A stretch of DNA of 64,000 nucleotides, taken from NCBI RefSeq assembly GCF_003254525.1, contig NZ_QFYS01000008.1, forward strand, positions 1 through 64,000. The letters are read 5' to 3'. Below the pieces are notes generated by a model. The model was not told the origin of the DNA. It searched no databases and saw nothing but the letters and a program-made list of their open reading frames with translations. Source of the DNA: Phenylobacterium kunshanense. GTDB lineage: Bacteria > Pseudomonadota > Alphaproteobacteria > Caulobacterales > Caulobacteraceae. Made by a program: the position numbers and the translations under genes. Positions 8,025 through 64,000 of the stretch are shown here, piece by piece (the first letter of the stretch is position 1; the number at the start of each line of letters is the position of its first letter).

Positions 8025-8167
8025 TGTCCTATCCCCCGCTTGACCCGACTGCGGGCGGCTTAGGGGGCTCGGGTGTCAGCGGCGTCACGGACCTGCGACG
8101 ATCGCGTGACGGCCGGATCGACCGTTTACGCTTGAGCCGGGGCGCGCCGGGAGTTAGGCCGCCCCCC

Positions 8168-9865: not shown

Positions 9866-9875
9866 GGCGGCGACC
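9853..9875. terminator. Perfect hairpin around the lysK stop codon
   Basis: GGTCGCCGCC and GGCGGCGACC form a perfect 10-bp stem with TGA as the three-base loop; that TGA (9863-9865) is the lysK stop codon. The convergent metalloprotease gene ends at 9876, directly beside it. There is no T tract, so a bidirectional transcript-end or 3'-protecting structure is more likely than a classical terminator. Confidence 0.5.
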
Positions 9876-12305
9876 TCAGTCCTCGTCTGAGCCGATCGGC
9901 ATTCCGGGCGGCGCCTCGGGCCGGCGCTTCGGCTGGCCGAGCACGCGGACCAGTTCCTCCTTGTCCTCCAGGAGCGCCGCCAGGGTCAGCCGGTGCGCCC
10001 GGTCGGAGCCAGCGCCCGGCTGGCTCTTCAGCTTGGTGGCGAGGTCCGCCAGCCGCTGGCTGATTTCGGCCTTCGCCGCAGGTGAAACGTCGGGGCGGCG
10101 CGTGGTGGCCGCCAGCTCCAGGACCGTGCGGGTCTGCACCCGCCGCGCCACCTCGGCCAGCTTGCCGCTCGCGGGCGCGAAGGCCTGGGCGATCAGCCTG
10201 TCGGACACCTCGCCGACGCCCGGCTGGGCCGGATCGCGGCGATGCTGCTCGACCAGGCGGGCCAGCCTCGGTGGGGCAAGGATAGCGTCCAGGACCATCC
10301 CCGCTCCGACATCCGCGGCGTTGAGCGCGTCGAACACCGGCCCGCCCGCGCCGTCGAACACCTCGATCTGGTGCTGTCGGTCCGTCTCGCCCGACTGGCC
10401 GGACGAGAGATACGGGATGAGCGCCTCGGGCGTGTCCAGTTCGGCCGGCGACAGGGCCGCCAGCAGACCGGCGAGCGCGGCGCGCTGGCGGTCGGCCGGG
10501 ACGACAGCCGCCTTCATGTTGGCGTCGCCGCGGACCGCATAGCTGAAGTCCACGCCGCCCAGCACCTTGGCCGCGGCCTCGAGCTGGTAGCGGTGCAGCA
10601 GGTAGATCGGCACGTACTTGCGCCTGAGCGCCTCGGCCGCCTCGCCGGGGCGCAGCGCCTGCGGGCCGAAGCGGTCCACGGCCGCCCGGCGCACGGTCAT
10701 GACCCGGGCCAGTTCGGCCACCGGATCGGCGCCGTCGTCCCAGATCGCCGCGTTGGGTTGACCCGAGCCAATGGGACGGGCGTCCTGGTCGGCGATGTAG
10801 CGCTGGGTCTCCAGAGCCGTCTTCGCCTTCGCGGACGCATCGCCGTCGCCGTCGCCGTACAGCCAGTCGACGGTGAACCTGTCCCAGGCCCCGATCCCCA
10901 CGCCGTAGGCGTCGGAGAGGTCGATCTGCCCGCCCGTCAGCTTCACCCGCGGCGCCGGGTAGTCCATGACCGAGGCGCGGTCCTGCGACGAAGCGGCGAA
11001 GTTGTGCGCGAAGCCCAGCGAGTGGCCGACCTCGTGCGCGGAGAGCTGGCGCAGACGGGCCAGGGCCACCTGCACCGGATCGTTCGGCCCGCCCTTGCCG
11101 CTGGCGTCGGCCCCGACGAGACCTTCGAAGATCAGCATGTCCTGGCGCACGCGAAGCGAACCCAGCAGGACGGATCCCTTGACGATCTCGCCCGTGCGCG
11201 GGTCGGTGACCGCCTGGCCATAGGACCACCCCCGCGTGGCGCGGTTGACCCAATTGATGACGTTATAGCGGACGTCGAGCGGGTCGGCGCCCTCGGGCAG
11301 GACTTCCACCCGATAGGCGTCCTTGAAGCCGGCGGCCTCGAACGCATCGGCCCACCAGCGGGCGCCTTCCACCAGGGCGGTGCGCACCGGCTCGGGCGCG
11401 GCCCGGTCGACGTAGAAGACGATCGGCTTCTTCACCGGCGAGACGGCCGCCGAAGGGTCGGTCTTCTCCAGGCGGAAGCGGCGCGCGAACCGCTGGACGA
11501 TGTCCTGGTCCAGCGGCGCCGCATAGTCGAGCACGATGCCGTCGAAGGCGCCTGAACGCGGATCGAAGGCACGAGGCTGGTAGCCGGACTCGGGCAGCTT
11601 CACCAGGCTGTGGCGCACCGTCAGGGTGACCAGGCGCGGATCGGGCGCGATGTTGCGCACCTCCGGCCCCGGCGTATCCGAGACGAAGGTCTGCAGCGCC
11701 TCGAACTCGACGTTCTCAGGGAAGACCTTCACCGCCGAGGGATCGGCCATCGAGAGGTCGGTCGACAGCTTGAAGCCCGCTTCTCCGCCCTGCTTCAGCG
11801 CATCGGCGATCCCGATCACGTCGCGGGTCAGCAGGCCTGTCAGGTCGACCAGCAATCGTCCGTCGGACGTGGTCCCCTCGATCTTGCCGCTCCAGACCAC
11901 AGAGGTGGCGAAAGCCTCGCGCGCCGCGGCCTGCTCGGCGGCGGGCGCCCCGCTCGCGCGGAACCTCGGGTTTTCGAACTCGGCGACGATCCGTCCGCCG
12001 ATCCGGCGGAACGCCAGCACCTGCGTGTCGCCGAGACGCGCCCGGTCCAGACCGATCGGCGCGGACCCCAGGCCGGTCTTCAGCGCCGATACATAGAGGT
12101 AGCGGCCAGCGACGCCTTGCGCGTCCGGCGCCGGCAGGGCGACCAGCACCCGGCCCTTGGTCGCATCCACGTAGACCGGGACCAGCCCGTCCTGTCGCGC
12201 GAGGCCGGCTGTCACCTCCGGCGCCGGCGGCGCCTTCGCGGCCAGGGCAGGGCCCGCAGCCAGGAGTGTCAGCGCCGTCGCGCCCGCCAGCCAAACTCGT
12301 TTCAC
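9876..12305 (-). CDS. Secreted zinc-dependent metalloprotease (DUF5117-type)
   Basis: An 809-residue protein with a Sec signal peptide (MKRVWLAGATALTLLAAGPA, cleavage after ALA). The extended metzincin zinc motif HEVGHSLGFAH lies near residues 424-434 and is followed by VMDYPAP, consistent with a Met-turn. The N-terminal third is the conserved domain that precedes the catalytic part in this family. Predicted periplasmic or secreted endopeptidase, substrate unknown. It converges on lysK with 10 bases between stops; the 210-base gap upstream separates it from the divergent merR gene. Confidence 0.9.
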   Translation of the reverse strand: MKRVWLAGATALTLLAAGPALAAKAPPAPEVTAGLARQDGLVPVYVDATKGRVLVALPAPDAQGVAGRYLYVSALKTGLGSAPIGLDRARLGDTQVLAFRRIGGRIVAEFENPRFRASGAPAAEQAAAREAFATSVVWSGKIEGTTSDGRLLVDLTGLLTRDVIGIADALKQGGEAGFKLSTDLSMADPSAVKVFPENVEFEALQTFVSDTPGPEVRNIAPDPRLVTLTVRHSLVKLPESGYQPRAFDPRSGAFDGIVLDYAAPLDQDIVQRFARRFRLEKTDPSAAVSPVKKPIVFYVDRAAPEPVRTALVEGARWWADAFEAAGFKDAYRVEVLPEGADPLDVRYNVINWVNRATRGWSYGQAVTDPRTGEIVKGSVLLGSLRVRQDMLIFEGLVGADASGKGGPNDPVQVALARLRQLSAHEVGHSLGFAHNFAASSQDRASVMDYPAPRVKLTGGQIDLSDAYGVGIGAWDRFTVDWLYGDGDGDASAKAKTALETQRYIADQDARPIGSGQPNAAIWDDGADPVAELARVMTVRRAAVDRFGPQALRPGEAAEALRRKYVPIYLLHRYQLEAAAKVLGGVDFSYAVRGDANMKAAVVPADRQRAALAGLLAALSPAELDTPEALIPYLSSGQSGETDRQHQIEVFDGAGGPVFDALNAADVGAGMVLDAILAPPRLARLVEQHRRDPAQPGVGEVSDRLIAQAFAPASGKLAEVARRVQTRTVLELAATTRRPDVSPAAKAEISQRLADLATKLKSQPGAGSDRAHRLTLAALLEDKEELVRVLGQPKRRPEAPPGMPIGSDED

Positions 12306-12453
12306 GATGAATCCCCAGCAGCGTTCGCGCGGAGCCTATCGACGGCATGGCCCGGTAGCCAGCGATGCGGCCCCGCGCAGGGTGGCTTTTCGGAGTTGGG
12401 GAAATGTCGGTCACGCTGCGTCATGCGGCGCCCCAACGGAACGCTAGTGTCCC

Positions 12454-12469
12454 TTGACGTAAACGGAAA
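12454..12469 (+). promoter_or_regulatory. LiuR-like MerR operator overlapping a -35 element
   Basis: TTGACGTAAACGGAAA differs by one base from the TTGACGTAAACGTAAA-type site I recall for LiuR-family MerR regulators of branched-chain amino acid and fatty acid degradation. Its first six bases also serve as a consensus-like -35 box. It lies 47 bases in front of the merR gene, which lies upstream of an acyl-CoA dehydrogenase gene. Assignment is by motif and context, not tested. Confidence 0.5.
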
Positions 12470-12515
12470 CCGGACCCTAGTGTGTTATCAACGATAACCC
12501 AGGGAGGACGTCACC

Positions 12516-12980
12516 ATGGCGAGTGACCTGCGCCGGCCGGCCCGGACCTATACGATCCGGCAGCTGTGCCTCGAGTTCAAATGCACCCCGCGCGCCCTGC
12601 GCTTCTACGAAGACAAGGGCCTGCTCACGCCCGCGCGCGACGGGATGAACCGCGTCTATTCCTACCGCGACCGCGCCCGCCTCCAGCTCATCCTGCGCGG
12701 CAAGCGCGTCGGCCTGTCCCTGTGCGAGATCGGCGAGATCCTTGACCTCTACGAGGTCGACGAGAGCGGCGCCCAGCAGGCCGCCAAGAGCCTGCGCAAG
12801 TTCCGCGAGCGGATCGTCGCCCTGGAACAGCAGAAGCAGGACATCGACGACGCCATCGCCCAGCTCCAGACCGGCATCACGGTCATGGAACAGCGCCTGG
12901 CCGAGACGCGCCCCGACCTGCTGCCGCGGGCCGCCGACTACGACCAGACCATGCGCCGGCAACTCGACGGCGTCGCCTGA
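12516..12980 (+). CDS. MerR-family transcriptional regulator
   Basis: A 154-residue regulator with an N-terminal winged HTH (YTIRQLCLEFKCTPRALRFY, then EDKGLLTPARDGMNRVYSYR) and a coiled-coil dimerisation helix (about residues 95-130, FRERIVALEQQKQDIDDAI). No cysteine cluster typical of metal sensors is visible, which fits the LiuR/fatty-acid branch. SD GGGAGGA lies just upstream of ATG 12516. The next gene, 77 bases on, is an acyl-CoA dehydrogenase, a common partner. Probably binds the site at 12454-12469 and controls itself and the downstream genes (inference). Confidence 0.92.
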   Translation: MASDLRRPARTYTIRQLCLEFKCTPRALRFYEDKGLLTPARDGMNRVYSYRDRARLQLILRGKRVGLSLCEIGEILDLYEVDESGAQQAAKSLRKFRERIVALEQQKQDIDDAIAQLQTGITVMEQRLAETRPDLLPRAADYDQTMRRQLDGVA

Positions 12981-12986
12981 CTCCTG

Positions 12987-13017
12987 CGTCATGGTCGGGA
13001 CAAGCCCGGCCATGACG
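12987..13017. repeat. Intergenic hairpin element
   Basis: CGTCATGGTCGGG and CCCGGCCATGACG form a 13-bp stem (one G-U pair) around a five-base loop ACAAG. This sequence type (GTCATGGCCGGGC...) recurs between genes in Caulobacter-like and rhizobial genomes as I know them. Located between merR and the acyl-CoA dehydrogenase gene, it may attenuate transcription or stabilise mRNA ends. Confidence 0.5.
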
Positions 13018-13057
13018 GTCTAAAGGGTGTCCGATCTCATCCGATTTCGGAGCACCC

Positions 13058-14842
13058 ATGAGCTACCAGGCCCCCGTTCGGGACTACCTCTTCCTGCTGC
13101 GCGACGTGCTGCAGCTCGACCGGTACGCCAACCTTCCCGCCTTCGCCGACGCCTCGATGGACACCGTCGAGGCGATCCTGGAGGAGGCCGGCAAGTTCAC
13201 CTCGGAGGTCCTCGCACCCCTCAACGCCGTGGGCGACAAGCAGGGCTGCGTCTGGAGCCCGGACTTCAGCGTCAAGACGCCTGACGGCTTCAAGGACGCC
13301 TACGCCAAGCTGGTCGAGGGCGGCTGGCCCGCCCTCGGCTCTGACCCCGCCTATGGCGGCCAGGGCCTGCCCCACGTGGTCAACGTGGCCTTCTCCGAGA
13401 TGAGCTCGGCGGCCAACATGGCCTTCTCCATGTACCCAGGCCTGACCCACGGGGCCTATTCCGCCATCCACGTCGGCGGGACGCAGGAACAGAAGGACCT
13501 CTACCTGCCCAAGCTGGCCTCATTCCAGTGGGCCGGCACCATGAACCTGACCGAGCCGCACTGCGGCACCGACCTCGGCCTCCTGCGCACCAAAGCCGTG
13601 CCGCAGGCGGACGGCACCTACCGGATCTCGGGCCAGAAGATCTGGATTTCGGGCGGCGAGCAGGACCTGACCGAGAACATCGTCCACCTCGTCCTGGCGC
13701 GGATCGAGGGCGCGCCGGCCGGCGTACGGGGCATCAGCCTGTTCATCGTGCCGAAGTTCCTGCCGGACGCGAAGGGCAATCCCGGCCAGCGCAATTCGGT
13801 GAAGTGCCTGGGCCTGGAAGAGAAGATGGGCATCCACGGCAACGCCACCTGCGTCATCAGCCACGAGAAGTCGGTCGGTTGGCTGATCGGCGAGGAGAAC
13901 CAGGGCCTGCGCCTGATGTTCGTGATGATGAACGAGGCGCGGCTGGGCGTCGGCCTGCAAGGCATCGCCCAGGCCGAGGCGGCCTACCAGGCGGCGGCGG
14001 CCTTCGCCAAGGACCGGCTGCAGGGCCGCTCGCTCACCGGCCCGAAGAACGCCGACGGCCCGGCCGACCCGATCATCGTCCACCCCGACGTGCGGCGGAT
14101 GCTGATGGACGCCCGCGCCCTCGTCGAGGGCGGCCGCGCCTTCATGGCCTGGACCGCCCTGCACGGCGACCTGTCCCACGCCAGCCCGGACGAGGCCGTG
14201 CGACAGAAGGGGCGCGACTACATGGCCCTGATGACCCCGGTGGTGAAGGCGTTCCTCACCGACCGCGGCTTCCAGGTGTGCTCCGACGCCATGCAGGTGC
14301 ACGGCGGCTCGGGCTTTACCGAGCACTTCCCGGCCAGCCAGTATCTGCGCGACGTGCGCATCGCCCTGATCTACGAGGGCACCAACGGCGTGCAGGCCCT
14401 GGACCTCGTGGGCCGCAAGCTGGCGGCCGACGGCGGCCGGGGCGTGATGAGCTTCTTCGCCGAGCTGGACGCCTTCATCGGCGCCGAGCACGACCCGGCC
14501 CTGAAGCCCTTCACCGACGGCCTCGCCAAGGCCAAGGCCGAGCTGCAGGAGGCCACCATGTGGCTGATGCAGAACGGCCTCGCCAATCCGGACAACGCCG
14601 GCGCGGCCTCCACCGACTACCTGCAGCTCTTCGGCCTCACGGCGCTCGCCTACATGTGGGCGCTGCAGGCCGAGGCGGCGCTGAAGCACATCGCGGCGGG
14701 CGACGCCGACCCGTTCTATGCGACCAAGGTCACGATTGGTCGCTATTACGTTGAACGGATCCTGCCTGAGAGCTCCAGTCGCCTGGCGAAACTGAAGACG
14801 GGATCCGAGCTCTTGATGAAGCTCCCCGCCGAAGCCTTCTGA
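13058..14842 (+). CDS. Acyl-CoA dehydrogenase (long form with C-terminal extension)
   Basis: A 594-residue FAD enzyme of the acyl-CoA dehydrogenase superfamily, in the large subclass with an extra C-terminal domain. Motifs: MNLTEPHCGTDLGLLRTKA and ISGQKIWISGGEQDL for flavin and substrate binding, VCSDAMQVHGGSGFTEHFP, and IALIYEGTNGVQALDLVGRK, whose Glu is the expected catalytic base. It introduces a trans-2 double bond into an acyl-CoA and passes electrons to ETF. It sits between a MerR regulator and an OsmC gene (11-base gap), probably one transcription unit. Substrate unknown. Confidence 0.93.
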   Translation: MSYQAPVRDYLFLLRDVLQLDRYANLPAFADASMDTVEAILEEAGKFTSEVLAPLNAVGDKQGCVWSPDFSVKTPDGFKDAYAKLVEGGWPALGSDPAYGGQGLPHVVNVAFSEMSSAANMAFSMYPGLTHGAYSAIHVGGTQEQKDLYLPKLASFQWAGTMNLTEPHCGTDLGLLRTKAVPQADGTYRISGQKIWISGGEQDLTENIVHLVLARIEGAPAGVRGISLFIVPKFLPDAKGNPGQRNSVKCLGLEEKMGIHGNATCVISHEKSVGWLIGEENQGLRLMFVMMNEARLGVGLQGIAQAEAAYQAAAAFAKDRLQGRSLTGPKNADGPADPIIVHPDVRRMLMDARALVEGGRAFMAWTALHGDLSHASPDEAVRQKGRDYMALMTPVVKAFLTDRGFQVCSDAMQVHGGSGFTEHFPASQYLRDVRIALIYEGTNGVQALDLVGRKLAADGGRGVMSFFAELDAFIGAEHDPALKPFTDGLAKAKAELQEATMWLMQNGLANPDNAGAASTDYLQLFGLTALAYMWALQAEAALKHIAAGDADPFYATKVTIGRYYVERILPESSSRLAKLKTGSELLMKLPAEAF

Positions 14843-50783: not shown

Positions 50784-51131
50784 GATCGTCTCCGCTTGCG
50801 CCTCGCCCGCGGGCTTCGCCCGAAAGGGAGGAATGGTGCCGCCTAGGTGACTCGAACACCTGACCTACGCATTACGAAATAGACTAAGATTGTCGGGAAA
50901 AACTGTGCCTTCATATCCGCTTAGGCTGAATTCGGCGCTGGTCCGACACGACAACCCAGACACTTCCCAAACTGGGCGCTGCGGGCGGCTTCGTCGTCTC
51001 CTACTTTGAGCGCTTTGGCGTGGGAATCCCGGAAAATTCGACCTGCGCCATACCTGCGGACAGATCACTCGTGGCCCGCAGCATACGCCGGCTTCTAGGC
51101 CAGTCCATGAGCAGGCTCTACCGTAGACCGC
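50784..51131. other. Island boundary region
   Basis: 348 bases without a gene between the SRPBCC gene and the first island gene. The left end holds a small hairpin (CGGGC-TTC-GCCCG near 50811-50823) and then the tRNA-Thr fragment (50834-50878). The remaining 250 bases have no frame with recognisable protein; they may carry integrase arm sites of the island. Confidence 0.6.
50834..50878 (-). pseudogene. 3' fragment of tRNA-Thr(CGT), attachment site attR
   Basis: On the minus strand this reads from the anticodon loop TTCGTAA (anticodon CGT) through stem TGCGT, variable loop, T arm AGGTG-TTCGAGT-CACCT and acceptor AGGCGGC to A-CCA. The 5' half is missing: past 50878 the sequence (ATAGACTAAG) no longer pairs with the anticodon stem. 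A breakpoint in the anticodon loop is a classical tyrosine-integrase crossover site. The 3' end faces the SRPBCC gene, so the island lies to the right. Confidence 0.87.
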
Positions 51132-52454
51132 ATGATTATTCACACGCGTCGCCAACACGCAGTTGGGCAGGGTTGCTTCCACTCTGGAAGTGTCGGAGCA
51201 GGCCCGCCGGAAGCGTATGATCCGAGCCACCTGCAGTATGTCTACGACTGCGGGGCCATGGGTCCATACGGCGCCAGCCTGCGGGCCGAGGTTAATCGCT
51301 TCCTGGCCGCGGGCCGCGGTGGTTCGATTGACCTCCTCTTCATCTCACATCTGCATCTCGACCACGTCAGCGGCGTCGAGCAACTCTGCTCCGGCTCAAT
51401 GGCCGTGGGCACGGTGGTGCTGCCCCTGCTCAACGATATCGACCGCCTAGTCTGCTTCGCGCGAGCGGCCGCGGAGGCACCGGGTGCCATTACTGACTTC
51501 TACCGGGACCTTATCGCCGACCCCACCGGAGCTATCACGCAGCGCCTGAACCCCGACCAGATCCTTTACGTCCGACGTGGCGAAGGTCCGGCGCCGGGTG
51601 GTGGCGAACTCGACGTTCCTGAACGGCCGGATTTCCCTAGAGACCCAGGACGTACGCGAGGCGAGGAGCGGACCTCCAAATGGCGCTTGGTCGGTCGCGG
51701 CTACGCCGGATCGGAGGGTCCGCAAGCGAATGGCAACGTTGCGCAGTCGCCAAGTGCGGCAACGCCGCTGATCGGGACCATAGACGACACGAACGGCTTC
51801 GAGATCGTCACCGCGGGCGAGAGTGCAGCCTGGATTCTGGCCCCTTATGTGGATGTTGAAGTAAGCGCTGAGCGGCAGTCGTTCATCCACACGGTGGCGA
51901 ACTTGTTGGGCCTCTCGCCGCATGAGTTTGAGCAAATGGCCTCAGACCCTCACTTCCTTCTGCTGCTCATCACTAATTGCCGCGAGGAATTGGCTGCGGC
52001 CTACAACGCCGTTGCGAACCTGAACGTCACTTCTCTCTGCCTGCTGTCAGCGCCCTACGAGGTTCAGGCTGGGAGTGTATGGCGGCTACATCGGCCGAAT
52101 CCTACCTGGGCTTTTGGCTACGTCCGGCGCGGACAGAAGGTAGGCTGGATCGGCACGGGCGATGCTGATCTTAAGAAGCTGGCGCGACGCAAAGCATTCC
52201 TTGACCACTACGCGGCGCGACTAAAGCAGATCGCGACCCTGCTGCTGCCGCATCACGGTTCGGCGCACAACTTTCATGAAGAGCTACTCGACAGGATTCG
52301 CCCGATGGTGTGCATCGCAGCGGCCGACGCCTTCAGCACCTGGCAGCATCCCGGCGCAAGGGTGATCCAAGCCGCCAACTCGCGCGGCATTCCTCTTTGG
52401 GTGACCACTGGCAGTCCGAGGTCGAGGACCTGGGAAGCCGCCGTGTCTAGGTAA
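51132..52454 (+). CDS. MBL-fold metallohydrolase, island cargo
   Basis: A 440-residue protein. An N-terminal MBL core reads YVYDCGAMG and LLFISHLHLDHVSGVEQL (HxHxDH near 73-78). A long insertion (about residues 120-250), partly polar and Gly/Pro-rich, separates this from the C-terminal half of the fold with GWIGTGDADL (metal Asp) and LLLPHHGSAHNFHEELLD (late His), like ComEC/Rec2-type hydrolases. Substrate unknown; nucleotide or nucleic-acid hydrolysis is possible. First gene inside the island. Its TAA overlaps the end of the convergent GNAT gene by 8 bases. Confidence 0.8.
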   Translation: MIIHTRRQHAVGQGCFHSGSVGAGPPEAYDPSHLQYVYDCGAMGPYGASLRAEVNRFLAAGRGGSIDLLFISHLHLDHVSGVEQLCSGSMAVGTVVLPLLNDIDRLVCFARAAAEAPGAITDFYRDLIADPTGAITQRLNPDQILYVRRGEGPAPGGGELDVPERPDFPRDPGRTRGEERTSKWRLVGRGYAGSEGPQANGNVAQSPSAATPLIGTIDDTNGFEIVTAGESAAWILAPYVDVEVSAERQSFIHTVANLLGLSPHEFEQMASDPHFLLLLITNCREELAAAYNAVANLNVTSLCLLSAPYEVQAGSVWRLHRPNPTWAFGYVRRGQKVGWIGTGDADLKKLARRKAFLDHYAARLKQIATLLLPHHGSAHNFHEELLDRIRPMVCIAAADAFSTWQHPGARVIQAANSRGIPLWVTTGSPRSRTWEAAVSR

Positions 52455-53246: not shown

Positions 53247-54401
53247 CTAGGGGAGCTCCTGCTTCGCCGCGGCGGCTTCGACAGCGGCGAGTAAGGTGTC
53301 GTTCGCCAGATGCGAGTAACGCTGAGTCGATTGGTAACTCGCGTGGCCAAGCACCTTCCCGACCGCGAAGAGATCGACCCCGCTGTTGACCATAAACGAG
53401 GCTGCGGAGTGCCTCAGATCGTGGATCCGCAGACCCGGCAGTCTCGCAACCCTTGTGGCCCGTAACCATCCGTGCCTGATGGACACGAAGGGTTTCAGGG
53501 TTTCCGGGTTCGGGACCAACCAGGGGCAGCCCTTGAACCGCGGCAGGGTCTCCACGATCGCCAGAGCGGCGGTGGAGAGGGGCACGTACCGGGCCTTTCC
53601 GGTCTTGCTCGTCGGGATGAGCCAGGCGCGGCGTTCGACATCGACGTGTTCCCATCGGGCGTCGAGCAACTCGCGCACCCGAGCCCCCGTCAGCAACAGC
53701 AATCCCACGATATGCCGGAGCTGAGGGTTTTGAGACTGCGCCACCGCGAGCCGAAGCTGCGCGGCCTCCTCCGCCGACAGGAAGCGTTCACGGGCATTGT
53801 TCAGGGGCTTTCGGGGTATGCCGCGCGTCGGGTTCTTGTCGCAGCCCGGCACATCCCAACGGGAGCCCAACACAAACGATCGGCCGAAGATGACCCTGAT
53901 CTTCTCGACGGTGGCCGGCGCGAACCCCTCGGCTTGCTTCTCGCTAAGCCATTGAGCCACTCCCCGGCTGCCGATGTCGGTCAGGCGCACCTTGCCCCAC
54001 CTCGGGAGGATGTGCCGGCGCATGTACATCTCGGTGTCGCGGAACGAACGCTGATGCAGCTTGGCGTCCGCGAGGTGCATCTCGGCCAGCTCCCGGTAGA
54101 GAGGGATGGACTTCGCCAGCGCCTTCTTCGCGCCGGGGTCGCCGCCCATCACCACCTCCGCCCGCAACTTCTGAGCCTGCTTCTTCGCCAAGTGGAAGGG
54201 CACATCCTCGTACCGACCGATCTTATGCTGCCGCAACCGGCCGCCCTGGTCGCTGTAGCGCAGGTAGTAGGTCCGCCCGCCGGTGGACCGACATTCGAGA
54301 ATGAAACCGGTGATGGTGACGTCGTAGTAGACGGTCTTCGATTGTCCGGGTTCGCACTCGGCGGTGGAGGCGAACGCATGGTCAAGTTTGGCCTTAGGCA
54401 T
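53247..54401 (-). CDS. int: Tyrosine recombinase/integrase
   Basis: A 384-residue integrase of the phage/island type. It has an N-terminal DUF4102-like arm-binding part (TVYYDVTITGFILECRS, TYYLRYSDQGGRLRQHKIGR), a core-binding SAM-like domain (LADAKLHQRSFRDTEMYMRR), and the catalytic domain with TGARVRELLDARWEHVD (first Arg), IHDLRHSAASFMVNSG (His-x-x-Arg-His) and VLGHASYQSTQRYSHLAN (catalytic Tyr). It would drive integration at the tRNA-Thr site. ATG start at 54401; no excisionase recognised nearby. Confidence 0.93.
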   Translation of the reverse strand: MPKAKLDHAFASTAECEPGQSKTVYYDVTITGFILECRSTGGRTYYLRYSDQGGRLRQHKIGRYEDVPFHLAKKQAQKLRAEVVMGGDPGAKKALAKSIPLYRELAEMHLADAKLHQRSFRDTEMYMRRHILPRWGKVRLTDIGSRGVAQWLSEKQAEGFAPATVEKIRVIFGRSFVLGSRWDVPGCDKNPTRGIPRKPLNNARERFLSAEEAAQLRLAVAQSQNPQLRHIVGLLLLTGARVRELLDARWEHVDVERRAWLIPTSKTGKARYVPLSTAALAIVETLPRFKGCPWLVPNPETLKPFVSIRHGWLRATRVARLPGLRIHDLRHSAASFMVNSGVDLFAVGKVLGHASYQSTQRYSHLANDTLLAAVEAAAAKQELP

Positions 54402-54726: not shown

Positions 54727-56370
54727 TCACATCACCCGCCAACTGCGACGTTCCTTGCTGTCGCCTGGCTCGATCCGCAATCCGCCCGCCTTGCGGCCGC
54801 GGTTCTTGTTCAGGAACCAGCCGAGCCTGCCCGGACTGACGTGCCGACCGTCCATGACCGGGAGTTCGGTAAGGACGTCCATGAGGTTGGGGTGATCAAT
54901 CGCCGTGGCGACGACCTTCCTCACGGTCATGGTCCGGGAGCCGAAGACTTCCGACCAAGCGGTCAAGAACTCTTCGAGCAGCTGCTGATCCGGATCATGG
55001 GTCACCTGATCGATCAGGCTCTGCGCCGGATCGGGCAAGCCCAGCCAAAGGAGCGGCTGCCGGCAGAACGTCGACCACCCATCGTAGGTGCCGATCGGCT
55101 TCACGTCGGCGAGGGGCGCGCCCGCCGCCAGATATGCGCCGATGATCGTCAGCGCATCCCCAACAGCAGCCTTCCTATGCCTGCGCAGGTGCTCGACGGG
55201 GTCGTCCTTGCGGTAGCGGCGAAAGGCCGGCGTCTCACTACGGGGTTCGAGGCGGATCGAGATCACCCGACGCCGCATATCCCGCTCGGGCTCGATGTTG
55301 TTGCCCGTCCCCAGCATGAGCACGTTCGTCCGCGCCGTGGCGGTGCGGGTCGAGCCGAGTATGCGCTCGGTGACCGTTGGACTCGTCAGCGCCTTGTTGA
55401 TTGCGCCGAACGATCTCCAGTCCGTCTGCATGTCATCGAACAGGATGACCGCAGGCTTCTCTAGCAGCATCGCCACCACGACCTTCGTCGCCTCATCGGC
55501 CTTGGTCGGGTAGCTGGTGATGTAAGGGTCGCCCGGACCCGCAAACGCCGCGATGATGTTCGCCAAGTAGCTTTTGCCGCTACCCGACCTTGAGGCCGTA
55601 AGGCTGAAGGCTGGGGCTTGGGCAAGCGACGGGCGAATGGCAGCCGTCAGCATGGCAGCCAAAGCCCCTGATAGGTCCGCTTCGGAGGCGAAGGGGACCT
55701 CTTCGATGAGCCACTTCAGGCATTCGAGCGCGTGTTCCGCCTTCTCCCTGGTTGGCTCCTTCAGATCGTAGTCGTCGCCGTTGAAGGCCGCATAGATGCC
55801 CGTCTCGGCATGATAGCCGGGTGAGGTGATGAACCTTCGATCTGGCCCGAGGTATGGCTGACGGGCCAAACCCTGCAGCGCCTTCAGGTGGGGGCGGTTC
55901 TGCCCCCGCATCAGGTTCTGCACGACGCCTTGGGGCGGGTCGCAGCGGACCCACTCTCCACGCTGCCCCCTCTTCTCCCAGCAGATCTTCGAGGACAGCT
56001 CCGTCACCAGGGCCTGGTCGTTGATCGCCTCCGACATCACGCCACCTCCCGGCCGGTCGATCACACGGACGATCGGTCCTCCCGCGTGGAAGTAGGCTCC
56101 ATCGACGGCCAGCACCCGCTCCGCTGCAGCAGCGATTCGATGAAGCTCGCCGGGCGAAACGCGGATGCGCGGCTGAGCGCCAGGCGACGCAGGCGTATAG
56201 ACGTCGTCGCCCTCGTCAGTGACCGCCCCAGGCGATGTCGCATGAGGCTGAGGCTCTGTTGGAGGCAACGGTGAGGTCTGGGTTTCGCCGCGCCGCTCGC
56301 GCGCCAGATCCTTGGGCTTCGGCAGAGTGAGATTAGGTGGTGGTGGTCGCTTTGGTGGCTGGTTTGCCAT
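54727..56370 (-). CDS. P-loop ATPase, probable replication/primase-helicase protein of the island
   Basis: A 547-residue protein with a Pro-rich, disordered first 60 residues, a middle domain of unknown fold (about 80-240) and a P-loop ATPase part: Walker A SLTASRSGSGKSYLANIIAA near 265, Walker B AVILFDDMQTDW near 310, and a TGNNIEPERDMRRRVISIRL sensor/arginine-finger-like segment. The C-terminal 120 residues include FLTAWSEVFGSRTMTVRK, possibly winged helix. Proteins of this type stand for replication modules in islands and satellites. Start at ATG 56370 with GGAAAG upstream; a TTG 12 bases further is less likely. Confidence 0.8.
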   Translation of the reverse strand: MANQPPKRPPPPNLTLPKPKDLARERRGETQTSPLPPTEPQPHATSPGAVTDEGDDVYTPASPGAQPRIRVSPGELHRIAAAAERVLAVDGAYFHAGGPIVRVIDRPGGGVMSEAINDQALVTELSSKICWEKRGQRGEWVRCDPPQGVVQNLMRGQNRPHLKALQGLARQPYLGPDRRFITSPGYHAETGIYAAFNGDDYDLKEPTREKAEHALECLKWLIEEVPFASEADLSGALAAMLTAAIRPSLAQAPAFSLTASRSGSGKSYLANIIAAFAGPGDPYITSYPTKADEATKVVVAMLLEKPAVILFDDMQTDWRSFGAINKALTSPTVTERILGSTRTATARTNVLMLGTGNNIEPERDMRRRVISIRLEPRSETPAFRRYRKDDPVEHLRRHRKAAVGDALTIIGAYLAAGAPLADVKPIGTYDGWSTFCRQPLLWLGLPDPAQSLIDQVTHDPDQQLLEEFLTAWSEVFGSRTMTVRKVVATAIDHPNLMDVLTELPVMDGRHVSPGRLGWFLNKNRGRKAGGLRIEPGDSKERRSWRVM

Positions 56371-56659
56371 GCATCTTTCCAAACGTAGGCGCTCCCCTCC
56401 ACAGGCGCGGGGGGAGTCGCAGATGATTGAGGGAGGTTTGTCGGCCCTGATTCTCGGGGTCGCAGGCCACTTGGCGCTTATCAGTGCGACGCCGCCTCAA
56501 AGGCAGCGTTGCCCCCTAACGAAACCGATGCCGGTCATCAGAGAGGGAGAATTAAACGGGTTTGGTTTTGGGGCATGCTTTGCCGCGCCCGGTGCACTCT
56601 GGGCGGTTTTCGGCAATTTTATGCCTTCTGGAAGATCCTGCGGACAGCCCAAACAGCGC

Positions 56660-58060: not shown

Positions 58061-58366
58061 CTATCGGGAGGATCTACTGACCATCCGCTCTGCTGCATCA
58101 AGAGCGTGTCGAGCGGCTTCAAGCGCCTGCACAAAGGCCGCCGCTTCTCGACCGCTCAGGTACGGACCAGGGGGCGGAAGGAGATCCGGCGCGGCGGGAT
58201 CGACATGTCGAAACTTGTACCCCGCCGCGATCTCGCCAATACGACCGCCGTTCACGCCGAACCAGGCAGCGATATCGTGCTGGCGATCTCCCCGACGCAG
58301 CATGCCTTTGACTAGGGCCGCGTCTTCGTCATCCAACGAAATGCCACTCGAAGGGGCTCGACTCAT
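58061..58366 (-). CDS. Small helix-turn-helix protein
   Basis: A 101-residue protein with a homeodomain-like HTH: AALVKGMLRRGDRQHDIAAW, then FGVNGGRIGEIAAGYKFRHV. The C-terminal helix EAARHALDAAERMV could mediate dimerisation. ATG 58366 is preceded by a perfect AGGAGG six bases away and is preferred to ATG 58381, which overlaps the AIPR gene stop. Last gene of the defence-like cassette and a candidate regulator of it (inference). Confidence 0.75.
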   Translation of the reverse strand: MSRAPSSGISLDDEDAALVKGMLRRGDRQHDIAAWFGVNGGRIGEIAAGYKFRHVDPAAPDLLPPPGPYLSGREAAAFVQALEAARHALDAAERMVSRSSR

Positions 58367-58377
58367 CTCTCGCCTCC

Positions 58378-59754
58378 TCATACCGCAGCCGCGAGCTTGA
58401 GCAGCTCGGTTTCGAAGGCGTCGACGACCAGGTCATAGGACCCCTCGTTCTTGCCGATCTTTTGGGGATCGGCGCGGAACGCATCCATGATCACACGGTA
58501 CTTCTTCACGATCGGCTGGAAGTAGCCGTCCAGGAAGTCGTTGGGATCCTTCTTCCACCGCAGCCGCCCGTCCGGCGCGCGCTCGATTAGGCTCTTCAGT
58601 CCGTAGACGAGGGGCATGATCAAACCGTCCGGGTAACTGTAGTTCACAGGGTGGCTCGTGAAGTGGGTTGTGGGCTTCGTCCGCATGTCCTTCGCGGGCT
58701 TGACCACCGTGAGGCCGCCGAACCTGCCCGTCCCGTCGTTGTAGGCGTCCGGGAAGGTGCGGTAGATCCGGTCGTAGAGCAGCGGGAGTTGCGCTGCGAG
58801 TTCGAGTGCGCTGCCGACCTGAGTGTTGTGCAGCTCGTGGCGGTACTCACCGCCTTGTTGTTTTGACACCGCCGGGCTGCCCATCAGCCGGTCGAACAGC
58901 TTCACGCACTCGCCCTTGTTCCGGTAGATGTTCTGCGGAACGGGCGCCTCAATGCGACGGCCGTCCTCGTCGTCCGGTAGATCGACAAGCGACAACGGGA
59001 TCCAGGCCAGGGCGATCAGATCCCGGACCTTGATGTCGCCGCCGTCGTTCGTCTTCCATTCCACGCGGTTGGCGATGAATGGCGGGAGGAACTTGCGGAA
59101 CTCCTCGTAGTAGCCCTTCTGGTTGGCCTTCGTTTCCAGCTTCAGCTCGACGTTGTTGTTACGGGCCGCACAAATGTCGAGCAGCGAGCTTGAGAACTCG
59201 TCCATCACATCGGGGTCTTCGATGTTCGACGGGACCAGGATCTCGAGCGGAACGAGGAAGTCGAGCAGTCCATCGCCCTCGTCTTCGGAAGTAGCCTTCC
59301 TGAGATCCTCGACGAGGTCGCGGTTCTTTTCCCAGGCCGCCTTGAAGTCCGGCCAGCGCGCCGGCCGCAGCTTCTCGTTGCCCGTGGCCAGCCGCAGGAT
59401 CTGCGTGCCGATGGCCAGCATGTTGTGGCCGCCATCGAGGATGCCCTCGATCTTCAGGTTCTCGAACTTCAGCTCGAAACGATTGCGTTCGAGCTTCTCG
59501 TAGTTGGACGAGCCGACCAGAACGCCCTTGGTCTTGAAGGGAAAGGTGTTGGGCGTCTCGACGATGCTCTCGATGATCGCGTCGGTCACCGGCCCGGCTT
59601 TTGCCGAGCGCGGGTTCGCCTCAAGGTCAGCGGCGTCGAAAAGGTTGAGCATGTTGCGGGCTTTCACAAAGCCCACGATCCGGCGAACCGGGCCTTCCAC
59701 CTGTTCGGCGACTTGGCCCTGGTCGAAACGGACGAGGATACGATCGGGGTTCAT
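58378..59754 (-). CDS. AIPR-like (abortive infection phage resistance) protein
   Basis: A 458-residue protein resembling the AIPR family by the core KIEGILDGGHNMLAIGTQIL (DGGHN near 107-111), comparable to the DGGHT/DGQHR pattern of AIPR and DndB-like proteins, preceded by ANPRSAKAGPVTDAIIESIV. The C-terminal 300 residues have no motif that I can assign. It lies downstream of a type ISP-like methyltransferase gene on the same strand, 231 bases apart. SD AAGGAG sits in a hairpin. Family assignment rests on one motif and context, hence moderate confidence. Confidence 0.72.
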   Translation of the reverse strand: MNPDRILVRFDQGQVAEQVEGPVRRIVGFVKARNMLNLFDAADLEANPRSAKAGPVTDAIIESIVETPNTFPFKTKGVLVGSSNYEKLERNRFELKFENLKIEGILDGGHNMLAIGTQILRLATGNEKLRPARWPDFKAAWEKNRDLVEDLRKATSEDEGDGLLDFLVPLEILVPSNIEDPDVMDEFSSSLLDICAARNNNVELKLETKANQKGYYEEFRKFLPPFIANRVEWKTNDGGDIKVRDLIALAWIPLSLVDLPDDEDGRRIEAPVPQNIYRNKGECVKLFDRLMGSPAVSKQQGGEYRHELHNTQVGSALELAAQLPLLYDRIYRTFPDAYNDGTGRFGGLTVVKPAKDMRTKPTTHFTSHPVNYSYPDGLIMPLVYGLKSLIERAPDGRLRWKKDPNDFLDGYFQPIVKKYRVIMDAFRADPQKIGKNEGSYDLVVDAFETELLKLAAAV

Positions 59755-59780
59755 TACTGGGTCTCCTTAGAGCAAGGAGA
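59752..59780 (-). promoter_or_regulatory. SD-sequestering hairpin in front of the AIPR gene
   Basis: On the minus strand TCTCCTT-GCTCT-AAGGAGA forms a perfect 7-bp stem, and the 3' arm is the Shine-Dalgarno sequence, seven bases before ATG 59754. Folding would hide the ribosome site. A second small stem CGGGCG-CTT-CGCCCG lies at 59806-59820. The 231-base gap therefore looks like a regulated leader rather than dead sequence. Confidence 0.65.
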
Positions 59781-59985
59781 ACCGTTCCAGATTGATCCCG
59801 CTGGCCGGGCGCTTCGCCCGTCATCCGACACGTTCCGGGCCTCCGGCCCGCCTCGTCTTCGGTCGCCGCTATCCAGCAGCAGGATCTCGCCAGAACCGCT
59901 CTCGGTTCTTTTCCAGCTCCCATCCGGGAGCGCGCCGAAAATGCAGTTCTAGCCAGGAGGAGTCAACGGCCAAGCTGCCGAAGCC

Positions 59986-62900
59986 CTAGTCGCTCATACC
60001 TTTGAACGCGTCCGGCCAGCCGCCATGGCGGGCGATGACCTCGTCGATCTCGGCCATGACCTTGCCGGTCTCCTCCAGCGCCACGATCATGCGGCGGTAG
60101 TGGAGGATATCCTCCTCGGTCAGCAAGCGGCCGGGTTTCAGCTTGTCCTTGGAGCCGCTCTCACTGCGATCCTTCAGCCACTTTTGGGCCGGCTGGTAGC
60201 CGCCGATCCAGTGTTCCCAAGCCGCCTGAGGCACAGTGGCGAACCAGTTCTGGTCGTTCAAATAGACCCGGCCTGAGGCATCTCGGCGCACTTCCTTGTT
60301 GATGCGGCCTAGGCGCGGCTCGCCACCATTGGAGACGAAGCGCACCTTGGGGCTGACAAACAGGTCAGGCAACGCGTTGGCGTCCAGCATGTGCAGGGCG
60401 ACCAGTCGCGCTCCAAGCGAAATCAGGCGTCTGAATAACTCACGGCTCTTAGGCTTCGGAATACGCGGGTAGTCTAATCTCAGCTCTGCCTCGAAACGCG
60501 ACATATAGGTGGCCGAACTGATCACCGCGTATACGTAGGCGATACCATCCTCGCTCGGTATCTCCCCGAACCCTAGTGACTCACCTCTGAAGTTCGCGTC
60601 CGACACGACACTCGGCACTCGCGCCGGAAATAGCTTGGCTTCTCCACGAGCTGATTTCAGCACACGCTTGTCCGCTGCTTGCCCTGCGACGAACCCAATC
60701 CCTAGTCGTGGAGCGTCGACCCCCCGTGAAGCGAGCAAGCTTATATTTTCGCGGTCGACAACTGCGCGAGCAACAAGTTCACGTGGCCGGTGTACAATAT
60801 CTTCATCGTAATAGATGAAACACGGTTCAAATATCCGATAAATGTAAGGCTTGATCCGGGCCCTACTCACGCCCTTTTGCTTAAGAGCAACACTAGAGGC
60901 CTGAGGACTCCAGAAATCAGACTTAGACACACCCAATCGCGCACATAGCGACCAGGCCTCGTCCGTCGATGACGCAAACTTGGTTAGACGACTGAACAGC
61001 TCGTCAGAATCGCTCGACAGGCAAAGCTCGTCCCTGTTGGTTTGAACGCCGGTAGTGCTCTCAACAAAGAGGTCTGGCAGCGCGATCCAACTCTCGTACG
61101 CTTCATTCTCCGCAGGCGCATCTATGAGCAAGAACTGAGGAGAACTGGGTGAAATGGCCTTGTGGCCGCTAATATTAATGGCTTCCTTCGACAGGATTTC
61201 TACTTTCTCAGAATATTTTCCAACCAGCCTGGAAAAAAGGACTTGCCTGTCCGACACTGGTTTCCAAATAAGAGAAATGGCGACTCCTGTAGTGATATCG
61301 AACACGTTCTCATCTCGTCGCGCTTCTGGATCGTAGATGCCTCGATATAGATCCAAAACGCTAATCGATGCACCATCAAGCATTGCGTGGCGCATCTCTC
61401 TTTGCGTTGAACCATCCAGGTAGCTGCGGTTAGTGATGAACCCGATAACGCCGGCACCGGCGCGCTCAACCGCATTGTTCGCCATCGCAAAGAATTTTAT
61501 ATAGTCATCGTAGAGATTTACTTTTACCTCGCCCCGCATATCTCCTCGGAATCCCGCAAGAAGTCTGGATATCCAGGGGTTGTCGTTTGACTTCCCAAAA
61601 TTTGAGTACGGTGGATTGCCGACAATCACCGTAAACTGTGCCTCAGACTTTGCGTCGTTTGCGGCCGTCGCCTCTTGCGCCAGGGCCTCGCTCATAAAGG
61701 CCAGTTGCATGTCGAGATCTTGGGCCGGCTCGAGCGCGTTAGTTAGGAACACTCGCGCACGCGCCGGGCGAGCCCGCCCACTAGGTCCCGTCTCTGTCCC
61801 GGAGAAGTCATAGCCGGTATCGGCGAGCTTCAGGCCGATCTTCATGTGCGCCACGGCGTAGGGCGCCATCATCAGCTCGTAGCCGTAGAGGCGCGGCAGC
61901 AGGCGTTCCGCAACATAGACGTTCCAAAGGCGGCGCTTCTCGGCGGCTGTTTCGGCCTTCCAAGCATCGTCCATCATGCGCCGGTGGATCAGATCAATGA
62001 CCTCGACCAGAAACGTGCCAGTTCCGGTGGCCGGATCGAGGATCTTGACGAACGGATCCTCAGCCTTCGCGCCCTCAGGAACCTTCGTCCCCGGACGGGC
62101 CGCGACGAACTGACCCCAGGTGGTGGTGTCGGCCAGGCCAAGTGGAAGGCCGAACTCCGTCCGCAATAACTCGTCCACCGAGCGGACGATGAAGGAGACC
62201 ACTGGCCTGGGCGTGTAGAAGACGCCGCGCTGGACCTTCATTGCCTTGTCGTAGGCGGCGAGGAAGCCTTCGTAGAAGTGGATGACCGGGTCGTCGCCCT
62301 GCTTGTCCTTGTCGAAGTCGTCGAGCACCGCCTCCATGTTCGCGGTGTTCAAGAGGTCGATGACATCTCCCAAGCCCAACTCGTCGAAGTCGAGTCCCGC
62401 TCCCGCTCGGTCGCGCCCGCCGGCGGCCAGGAATGAGTTCAAGAGCTCGGAGAGGAATGGGTTCGTGGGGATCGCTGTCTCCAGCGCCTCCACGGTAATG
62501 GACGGCAGAGGCAGCGCCCCGTTCAGGGTCCGCGCCTTCTCCGCGCGCCAGCGCTGTACCTGATCAATGCGCTTCGACAGCAGGCCGTAGGCGATGGTCT
62601 GCGCATAGGTATCAGCGAACTTCGGGACGTCGAGGTCCTTGTTGAGTGTCGCCTTGACCGCCTCGAAGAGCTGGCCGAGCGGTTGTCCCGGTCGTTCCTT
62701 GGGCAGGATCTCCTGGATCGCCTGGCGGATCTGCTTGGCGCATTCGGCCAGGGCCTCGGCCATCTCCTTTGCTGTGCGTATCCCGTCGCGCGGCCGGTCG
62801 ATGAAGGCTCCAGCCCACCGCGCCTTCCACGCTTCCTCCAACTGACGTCCATCGGGCCAACGTAGCCGTTCCAACCGCTCGGCGACGGTCGCCATATGGC

Positions 62901-63369
62901 GCGGCGTGTCTTGCCGATCCCAGGCAAGCACTCGAAGTGTCGGGAGCGCCGCGCTGTTCGGCTCTTGATGGAAGTGCGCCAGTGCCAGCCGACGGTCGTC
63001 GGCCTTGCCGAACGCCGAGACGAACAGGAGGTCGTTCTTGTCAAATAGGGCGCGGTCGCCGGGATTCGCTGACTCTCGCTTCCTGCGACTGACGCTCGAC
63101 AGGATGCGGCGCAGCAGGGTGACGGGTAGCTCCGCCTTGTCAAAATCGACGAAGAACACGCCCCAGGGGTTCTGCTGGCCCAGGATCGGACGGAGCTGAG
63201 TGATCTCAACCTGGGCCTCCAGCTTAAGGCCAAGCTCGGCGGCGGTGTAGCTGTAGGTCAGTTGGTCGAAGCCGAGATCCTCGGGGATTTCCCATTCCAG
63301 CTCGTCACGCAGGTAGGCGACCAGGCTCGGGAAGTCGTTGATGGCTTTGAGGGAGTCGACGCTGGTCAT
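59986..63369 (-). CDS. Type ISP-like adenine methyltransferase with C-terminal specificity domain
   Basis: A 1127-residue N6-adenine methyltransferase. The N-terminal 370 residues form a helical/unknown region. Then comes QRGVFYTPRPVVSFIVRSVD, motif I ILDPATGTGTFLVEVIDLIH near 444, and motif IV VIVGNPPYSNFGK near 588. The C-terminal third is the target-recognition part of type ISP enzymes, ending with EHWIGGYQPAQKWLKDR and ILHYRRMIVALEETGKVMAE. The helicase and nuclease that precede this part in fused type ISP enzymes are absent; a helicase-like gene ends six bases upstream instead. ATG 63369. Confidence 0.92.
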   Translation of the reverse strand: MTSVDSLKAINDFPSLVAYLRDELEWEIPEDLGFDQLTYSYTAAELGLKLEAQVEITQLRPILGQQNPWGVFFVDFDKAELPVTLLRRILSSVSRRKRESANPGDRALFDKNDLLFVSAFGKADDRRLALAHFHQEPNSAALPTLRVLAWDRQDTPRHMATVAERLERLRWPDGRQLEEAWKARWAGAFIDRPRDGIRTAKEMAEALAECAKQIRQAIQEILPKERPGQPLGQLFEAVKATLNKDLDVPKFADTYAQTIAYGLLSKRIDQVQRWRAEKARTLNGALPLPSITVEALETAIPTNPFLSELLNSFLAAGGRDRAGAGLDFDELGLGDVIDLLNTANMEAVLDDFDKDKQGDDPVIHFYEGFLAAYDKAMKVQRGVFYTPRPVVSFIVRSVDELLRTEFGLPLGLADTTTWGQFVAARPGTKVPEGAKAEDPFVKILDPATGTGTFLVEVIDLIHRRMMDDAWKAETAAEKRRLWNVYVAERLLPRLYGYELMMAPYAVAHMKIGLKLADTGYDFSGTETGPSGRARPARARVFLTNALEPAQDLDMQLAFMSEALAQEATAANDAKSEAQFTVIVGNPPYSNFGKSNDNPWISRLLAGFRGDMRGEVKVNLYDDYIKFFAMANNAVERAGAGVIGFITNRSYLDGSTQREMRHAMLDGASISVLDLYRGIYDPEARRDENVFDITTGVAISLIWKPVSDRQVLFSRLVGKYSEKVEILSKEAINISGHKAISPSSPQFLLIDAPAENEAYESWIALPDLFVESTTGVQTNRDELCLSSDSDELFSRLTKFASSTDEAWSLCARLGVSKSDFWSPQASSVALKQKGVSRARIKPYIYRIFEPCFIYYDEDIVHRPRELVARAVVDRENISLLASRGVDAPRLGIGFVAGQAADKRVLKSARGEAKLFPARVPSVVSDANFRGESLGFGEIPSEDGIAYVYAVISSATYMSRFEAELRLDYPRIPKPKSRELFRRLISLGARLVALHMLDANALPDLFVSPKVRFVSNGGEPRLGRINKEVRRDASGRVYLNDQNWFATVPQAAWEHWIGGYQPAQKWLKDRSESGSKDKLKPGRLLTEEDILHYRRMIVALEETGKVMAEIDEVIARHGGWPDAFKGMSD

Positions 63370-63374
63370 GGCGA

Positions 63375-64000
63375 TCAGTTCAACTCCATCCAGGCTTTGA
63401 GAATGGGCCTGGCACCCACCGGCGCCTGGGCCTGCCGCATGTAGCCGCCCTCAATGTGCTTCTCGATGGCCGCGCGTGCGGCGATCAGGCGGGCGCGATC
63501 AAGCTGGATTCTGCGGACAGTGTCCGGGGCCGATCGGATATGGGCAGCGATGGCGGGCGCGCCTTCCAGCACAGGGCCGCCATCGAGCCCGTGGAAGTAC
63601 CATCGGACCTGGCGGGCCTCGTCCAGGTCCCAGGTTTCGTCACCCTCGGCCGTCCTCCCCCTGCCAGGCAAGGCGTAGCAGAAGAACACCCCTTGCGTGG
63701 TCGGCGCGGCACGCCCGCTGAAAACCCGGTTGGGCAAGTCGGCCAACCGCGCTTCGAGATCCGGATGGCCACTCAGGAGCTGGCGCAGCTCCTGGCGAAG
63801 CCGCTCCTCCGCAGTTGGTTCGGAATCGATCTCGCGGTTTAGGTCCTTCAGATCCTCGTAGTCGTCCGCTTCCGTCAGGAGGCGACGGCCCTCGATGCCG
63901 AAGAGGCGCGAGATCCGCAGAGTCTTGTGGGCCACACGATTGTAGAGACCAAGCAGCAGATCCAGCGCCTTGTTGGGCAGGAAATTCCAGTAGGCGACCT
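63375..64000 (-). CDS. C-terminal part of a helicase-like (SNF2-type) protein, cut by window edge
   Basis: The frame is open to the right edge; the visible 207 residues begin VAYWNFLPNKALDLLLGLYN and RVAHKTLRISRLFGIEGRRL, resembling the region after the helicase C-domain in SNF2-type defence helicases (FLPPDEL.....RL...K pattern). The rest (LPNRVFSGRAAPTTQGVFFC, YALPGRGRTAEGDET) is a C-terminal domain of unknown function. No helicase motif itself is inside the window. It ends five bases before the methyltransferase start, implying co-translation. Confidence 0.7.
   Translation of the reverse strand, partial: VAYWNFLPNKALDLLLGLYNRVAHKTLRISRLFGIEGRRLLTEADDYEDLKDLNREIDSEPTAEERLRQELRQLLSGHPDLEARLADLPNRVFSGRAAPTTQGVFFCYALPGRGRTAEGDETWDLDEARQVRWYFHGLDGGPVLEGAPAIAAHIRSAPDTVRRIQLDRARLIAARAAIEKHIEGGYMRQAQAPVGARPILKAWMELN

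Follow-up and report, generated by a model that had tools for sequence, protein, structure and literature searches.

A probable split Type ISP-like restriction-modification enzyme and its AIPR-like companion on an integrative island of Phenylobacterium kunshanense

What kind of defence system is encoded at the right end of a 64,000-nucleotide stretch of Phenylobacterium kunshanense DNA (contig NZ_QFYS01000008.1, positions 1 to 64,000; here called the window), and does the AIPR-like protein encoded there belong to it? The contig is 177 kb long and the window covers its first 64 kb; we read the last gene of the window, a helicase gene, on past the window edge. Reading of the open reading frames (ORFs) of the window confirmed the positions of four minus-strand ORFs that a preliminary description of the sequence had reported: a helicase, a methyltransferase, an AIPR-like protein and a small putative helix-turn-helix (HTH) protein. 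That description proposed a defence system in which the motor is a separate polypeptide and AIPR an added effector, in an arrangement not familiar from known systems. We found that the helicase and the methyltransferase very probably form one restriction-modification (R-M) enzyme, and that AIPR is an optional companion of this pair.

The helicase-methyltransferase pair and its relatives

The methyltransferase gene (59986..63369, minus strand) encodes a protein of 1127 aa with an N6-adenine methyltransferase domain and a Type ISP specificity domain. Its Pfam matches were Type_ISP_C (PF18135, E=2.8e-44), N6_Mtase (2e-9) and Eco57I (9.9e-9), in agreement with the earlier view that the protein is Type ISP-like, and no second Type ISP_C protein was found in the genome. 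The gamma N6-adenine motifs DPATGTGTFL and NPPY are intact, and both are retained in nearly all homologous methyltransferases readable across both regions. At the sequence level the protein matched LlaBIII, LlaGI and a further adenine methyltransferase (7lo5).

The next ORF encodes an HKD (phospholipase D, PLD) nuclease-SNF2 helicase, assigned by homology and invariant motifs. Its C-terminal part lies within the window (63375..64000, minus strand), and the full gene covers contig positions 63375-66569, reaching beyond the window, and encodes 1064 aa. The preliminary description had advised looking for a nuclease domain in this protein, and Pfam searches found one of the HKD kind (PLDc_2, 1.1e-8) together with SNF2 (6e-8) and Helicase_C (1.2e-17); no Mrr domain was found. 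In ten aligned helicases the HKD motif (FHxK..ITH..GSSN), Walker A (GVGLGKT), a DEAH-type box, TATP and motif VI (QRIGR) are invariant. The helicase ORF is distinct from the methyltransferase ORF, as had been claimed for the motor, and 5 bp separate the helicase stop from the methyltransferase start.

Close helicase homologues (40-63% identity) were found in Alphaproteobacteria, a Chromatiales bin, Agromyces and several viral-collection contigs. A methyltransferase was adjacent and on the same strand in all 12 informative close-helicase loci (window counted), and the two proteins are separate ORFs in every homologous locus. Among the distant HKD-SNF2 helicases (25-32% identity), 0 of about 70 loci had a methyltransferase of this type. 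A methyltransferase scan of viral contigs gave no match. The adjacency in 12 of 12 loci and the invariant motifs support an obligate two-subunit enzyme. On these sequence grounds the pair is very probably a split, HKD-armed, Type ISP-like R-M enzyme, in which the methyltransferase would recognise and modify the DNA, while motor and nuclease would both reside in the HKD-SNF2 protein. No description of a split HKD-SNF2 and Type ISP_C pair was found in the literature searched, a search that did not cover annotation databases such as REBASE.

Most plasmid Type ISP matches leave the N-terminal ~197 aa of the methyltransferase uncovered, and a point against the assignment is that its N-terminal 350 aa were modelled poorly, with a predicted local distance difference test (pLDDT) score of 67. 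The model of this region had no significant PDB match, and the weak matches listed are noise; the region may hold a second nuclease or a coupler. The best PADLOC model for the methyltransferase was REase_MTase_IIG (1.2e-133), and this score and an N-terminus without domain assignment would fit a self-restricting Type IIG-like enzyme, beside which the HKD helicase would be a nuclease in its own right, Type IV or abortive. However, helicase and methyltransferase are never apart within the clade, and the closest named sequence relatives of the methyltransferase are Type ISP enzymes, which depend on a motor. We regard the Type IIG-like explanation as improbable.

Like LlaGI and LlaBIII, the pair has an N6-adenine methyltransferase, a Type ISP C-terminal specificity domain, a superfamily 2 (SF2) motor and a nuclease. 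Those Type ISP enzymes, however, are one chain with an Mrr PD-QXK nuclease at its N-terminus, whereas the island system consists of two polypeptides and carries an HKD (PLD) nuclease. A plain one-chain Type ISP enzyme was ruled out, since nuclease and motor are in a separate ORF. PLD nucleases also act with an SF2 ATPase in CglI, NgoAVII and SauUSI. In SauUSI the PLD nuclease is joined to the SF2 translocase in one chain, and two protomers make one active site (PMC7913695), while in CglI and NgoAVII a PLD subunit is paired with a separate SF2 subunit (PMC5737866). The island pair differs from CglI and NgoAVII, whose nuclease and B3 recognition share one subunit, and from SauUSI, a methyl-dependent enzyme of Type IV that has a recognition domain to itself.

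Two further groups share the HKD helicase. BREX-related (BR) Type-2 systems combine an HKD and Swi2/Snf2 helicase effector with an N6-methyltransferase and DUF499 (PMC12839542), and the first two of these are found in the island pair; but DUF499 (PF04465) had no match in the whole genome. At least one BR core gene is therefore missing, and a BR/Hma (DUF499) system was rejected. PbeABCD and the CxC ABC-ATPase systems have an HKD-SF2 helicase (PbeA), and an AIPR-like gene lies near one of them (locus L023); unlike PbeABCD, the island shows no PbeC/DndD-type ATPase, and modification would come from the methyltransferase instead.

Class 1 DISARM (defence island system associated with restriction-modification) likewise pairs an SNF2 helicase with a large adenine methyltransferase, and the score of our helicase against DrmD (4.8e-34) would be expected of a remnant made of DrmD and DrmMI. 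The HKD+Snf2 profile C3a139 nevertheless scored better (8e-54), the methyltransferase reached only 4.6e-4 with DrmMI and is not of that kind, and HKD is fused to the helicase. Earlier it had been suggested that a drmABC set beyond position 64000 would make the system plain DISARM. None of drmA, drmB and drmC was found right of the helicase, where tRNA-Thr and core genes lie, and the genome has no MZB (PF09369) domain. Because no drmA/B/C follow, the system is not DISARM, and we give next to no credence to a DISARM remnant.

The short AIPR-like protein and where its gene occurs

The AIPR-like gene (58378..59754, minus strand) encodes a divergent AIPR-family protein of 458 aa with a predicted ParB/Srx-like fold and a DGGHN motif of a putative nucleotide pocket. 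By itself the protein matched PF10592 with E=0.096, below the Pfam cut-off. Since 17 of 18 family members match PF10592 (best 3e-8), the assignment to AIPR, already made in the preliminary description, holds at the family level. Profile comparison aligned the classical block N.R / F..NNG / NGxQT with NPR / FPFKTKG / LDGGHN. The LDGGHN motif, which is invariant across the 18 members and takes the place of NGxQT in classical AIPRs, is similar to DGQQR/GGCHR, the motif of the nucleotide pocket in GmrS and sulfiredoxin. DGQQR of GmrS has been treated as equivalent to the signature for nucleotide binding in Srx (PMC4619093).

An AlphaFold2 model of the protein, built from an 18-row alignment, had a pLDDT of 91. 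A Foldseek comparison with viral models found an AIPR protein (E=1.2e-5, probability 1.00) and a GmrSD N-terminal protein (probability 1.00, E=0.011, template modelling score 0.40), and the model resembles AIPR and, less surely, ParB/Srx proteins. Three points weigh on the other side: the A1-A2 profile comparison had a probability of just 27%, although its E-value was 6.7e-4; Foldseek of the model against PDB gave nothing significant; and the ParB/Srx link comes from the viral-library match and the motif.

The short family shares its conserved motif block with classical AIPR/AbiU1 (PF10592) and differs in having about 200 aa less at the N-terminus and H/N in the pocket motif. Ten full-length classical AIPRs, the comparison set, have about 300 residues ahead of the motif (NGxQT at 298-341), and seven of them carry a D.GID signature. 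In the short family LDGGHN lies at 83-105 and the signature is absent. The missing N-terminal segment leaves no segment that could hold a nuclease. Nor is AIPR needed as a nuclease effector, because an HKD nuclease domain is already part of the helicase. We thus set aside such a role as unnecessary for a protein that lacks the classical, REase-like (D.GID) segment.

Does AIPR belong to the system? The preliminary description had noted that AIPR-less relatives everywhere, with AIPR at this one locus, would make its presence accidental. This does not apply: when AIPR was the seed, six unrelated loci, counting the window, had AIPR and the pair no more than 10 kb apart. Their gene orders number at least three: the pair followed by AIPR (window, L012, L045/L052), AIPR followed by the pair (L050, L013), and a convergent order (L011). 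When the helicase was the seed, six informative loci had enough flank (only 2.3 kb upstream in L042); AIPR was near the helicase in two (L045/L052, L050) and was absent in the other four (L042, L043, L044, L059). With 2 of 6 such loci the partnership is loose. AIPR also occurs with other systems and alone, so it did not hold up as a fixed component. Well-supported branches of the AIPR tree force five or more changes in whether AIPR stands beside the pair, and the association has therefore been made or lost repeatedly. AIPR is an optional companion of the pair; the co-occurrence is real but loose. The partnership is also less unfamiliar than had been thought, since AIPR was reported in 2008 to be commonly encoded in R-M operons (PMC2292703), and in 2012 AbiU1/AIPR was described as often associated with R-M, with the N-terminus of DndB assigned to the same family (PMC3506569).

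A loose association raises the question of whether AIPR is simply an independent abortive-infection gene, brought near the pair by generic clustering in defence islands. Several AIPR-like genes have no recognised partner system nearby, and copies that stand alone in this way speak for an action independent of partners. In L008, the nearest relative (85%), AIPR is accompanied by the HTH-like gene, and the 7 kb upstream contain neither helicase nor methyltransferase. In the window a 231-bp gap separates the AIPR-like gene from the pair; a promoter scan of the intergenic DNA in the cassette was uninformative as to a shared promoter. Independence is opposed by the six loci, by the repeated gain or loss that the tree shows, and by a recurrent pairing with HKD helicases (window, L011-L014, L023, L045/L052, L050, L053) that exceeds generic island content: AIPR-like genes lie near other HKD-SNF2 and methyltransferase pairs in L014 and L053, and near Dnd genes together with PbeA/PbeC in L023. 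We consider full independence unlikely, though it stays a live rival.

The small gene at the end of the cassette (58061..58381, minus strand) overlaps the AIPR stop by 4 bp and encodes an HTH-like protein of 106 aa, a probable regulator. The gene stands as it was described, but its HTH character is weak, the top Pfam match being HTH_Tnp_4 (E=0.19). Orthologues adjoin AIPR in L008 (68%) and L011 (70%) and are rare among relatives. The coupling to this gene and the ParB/Srx-type motif would suit another role, in which AIPR, like DndB, senses a nucleotide or the modification state, represses expression or activity, and protects the host while methylation is established. The kinship of AIPR with the DndB N-terminus points the same way (PMC3506569), as does DndB itself, a reported ATP-dependent repressor (PMC10853773, PMC12704722). 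The regulator hypothesis is weakened by the variable gene order, by the frequent absence of AIPR, and by the many AIPR-like genes with no restriction system detected nearby. Moreover, in L024 and L025 the AIPR-like gene lies near Dnd genes with DndB already present beside it, which rules out AIPR as a replacement of DndB at those loci. We judge a DndB-like regulator rather unlikely, slightly more so than independence.

Other neighbours were seen at these loci. In L024 (Sphingomonas naasensis, 3625-13187) Dnd genes, the AIPR-like gene and a CBASS (cyclic oligonucleotide-based antiphage signalling system) cyclase with a two-transmembrane effector stand together. A GmrSD_N and HNH Type IV-like gene lies 2 kb upstream of the closest AIPR relative (L008, 3653-5041), and a Schlafen AlbA_2 protein immediately follows AIPR in the Chromatiales cassette copy (L012, 9747-11312). 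In L055 (Roseomonas mucosa plasmid, 10575-12243) an apparently broken remnant of an L053-type methyltransferase adjoins the AIPR-like gene. A tandem of an N-6 DNA methylase, a DUF262 protein and a distant HKD-SNF2 helicase was seen in L057 (Deinococcus radiophilus plasmid pRadio5, 2736-12159), where the DUF262 protein (ParB/Srx-like) has a position comparable to that of AIPR. The long ORF adjoining AIPR in L010 was rejected as a spurious reading.

The island at tRNA-Thr

The cassette was said to sit on an integrative island, and this was confirmed by an integrase, a duplicated tRNA 3' end and empty sites in relatives. The island is 16,301 bp long and is delimited by identical 45-bp direct repeats at tRNA-Thr. 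The left attachment repeat (50834..50878) has an exact copy at contig 67090-67134, where it makes up the 3' end of tRNA-Thr(CGT). This tRNA gene lies right of the helicase at contig 67090-67165 and is followed by a glycosyltransferase and apparent core genes (hemD/hemC-like by inspection). The GC content of the island is 0.62, compared with 0.69 and 0.73 in the flanks. The tyrosine integrase gene (53247..54401, minus strand) matched Phage_integrase (3.3e-25) and Arm-DNA-bind_3 (4.6e-11).

In three congeners (G196, G132, G175) the site is empty, because the left flank and tRNA-Thr are only about 20-40 bp apart. The same flanks enclose 1.5-6 kb in four other congeners (G006, G169, G217, G220), and the site therefore looks like an integration hotspot.

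Two other island genes were noted. The gene at 54727..56382 (minus strand) encodes a P-loop protein of 551 aa with a GSGKS motif, a Walker A-like motif in the translation, and is a probable replication or mobilisation ATPase; the protein had no family match in Pfam, PADLOC or NCBIfam. A gene for a protein of the metallo-beta-lactamase (MBL) fold (51132-52454, plus strand) adjoins the left attachment repeat. Its product is weakly similar to the defence MBL proteins LmuA, Avs1a and PDC-M48B and to ComEC, and the island may thus carry another gene for defence.

Proposed mechanism and meaning

Starting from the domains, intact motifs, conservation of the pair, repeated AIPR recruitment and mobility read from the sequence, we propose a two-subunit ATP-dependent R-M enzyme with AIPR as an optional second-line accessory, a reading to which we assign a probability of about 0.6. 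The methyltransferase would recognise a specific site via its Type ISP C-terminal domain and methylate adenine on host DNA. Unmethylated sites would recruit the HKD-SNF2 protein, which would translocate along DNA as an SF2 motor and cleave with its HKD nuclease, the active site probably being formed in a dimer by analogy with BfiI and SauUSI. The AIPR-like protein, whose gene is coupled to the small HTH-like gene, would be a nucleotide-binding switch of the ParB/Srx type. It would act as a second line, by growth arrest or interference once restriction fails, and not as a subunit of the restriction enzyme. We hold this second-line role tentatively, at somewhat less than even odds, with the regulator and the mere island neighbour as live rivals. 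It is a far more speculative idea, and a doubtful one, that the short DGGHN family may be a portable nucleotide-gated trigger that joins HKD-helicase effectors specifically, regardless of whether adenine methylation or phosphorothioate is the self-mark, and chooses between cleavage and cell arrest.

If the proposal is true, the work of a Type ISP-like enzyme can be divided between two subunits, and an HKD nuclease can replace Mrr; the pair would then connect three defence families, namely Type ISP, CglI/SauUSI and the HKD helicases. The AIPR, compact and lacking the classical N-terminal segment, appears to have been taken up on several occasions next to systems whose DNA marks differ. With this compact form the role of AIPR beside restriction systems, an old question, becomes testable.

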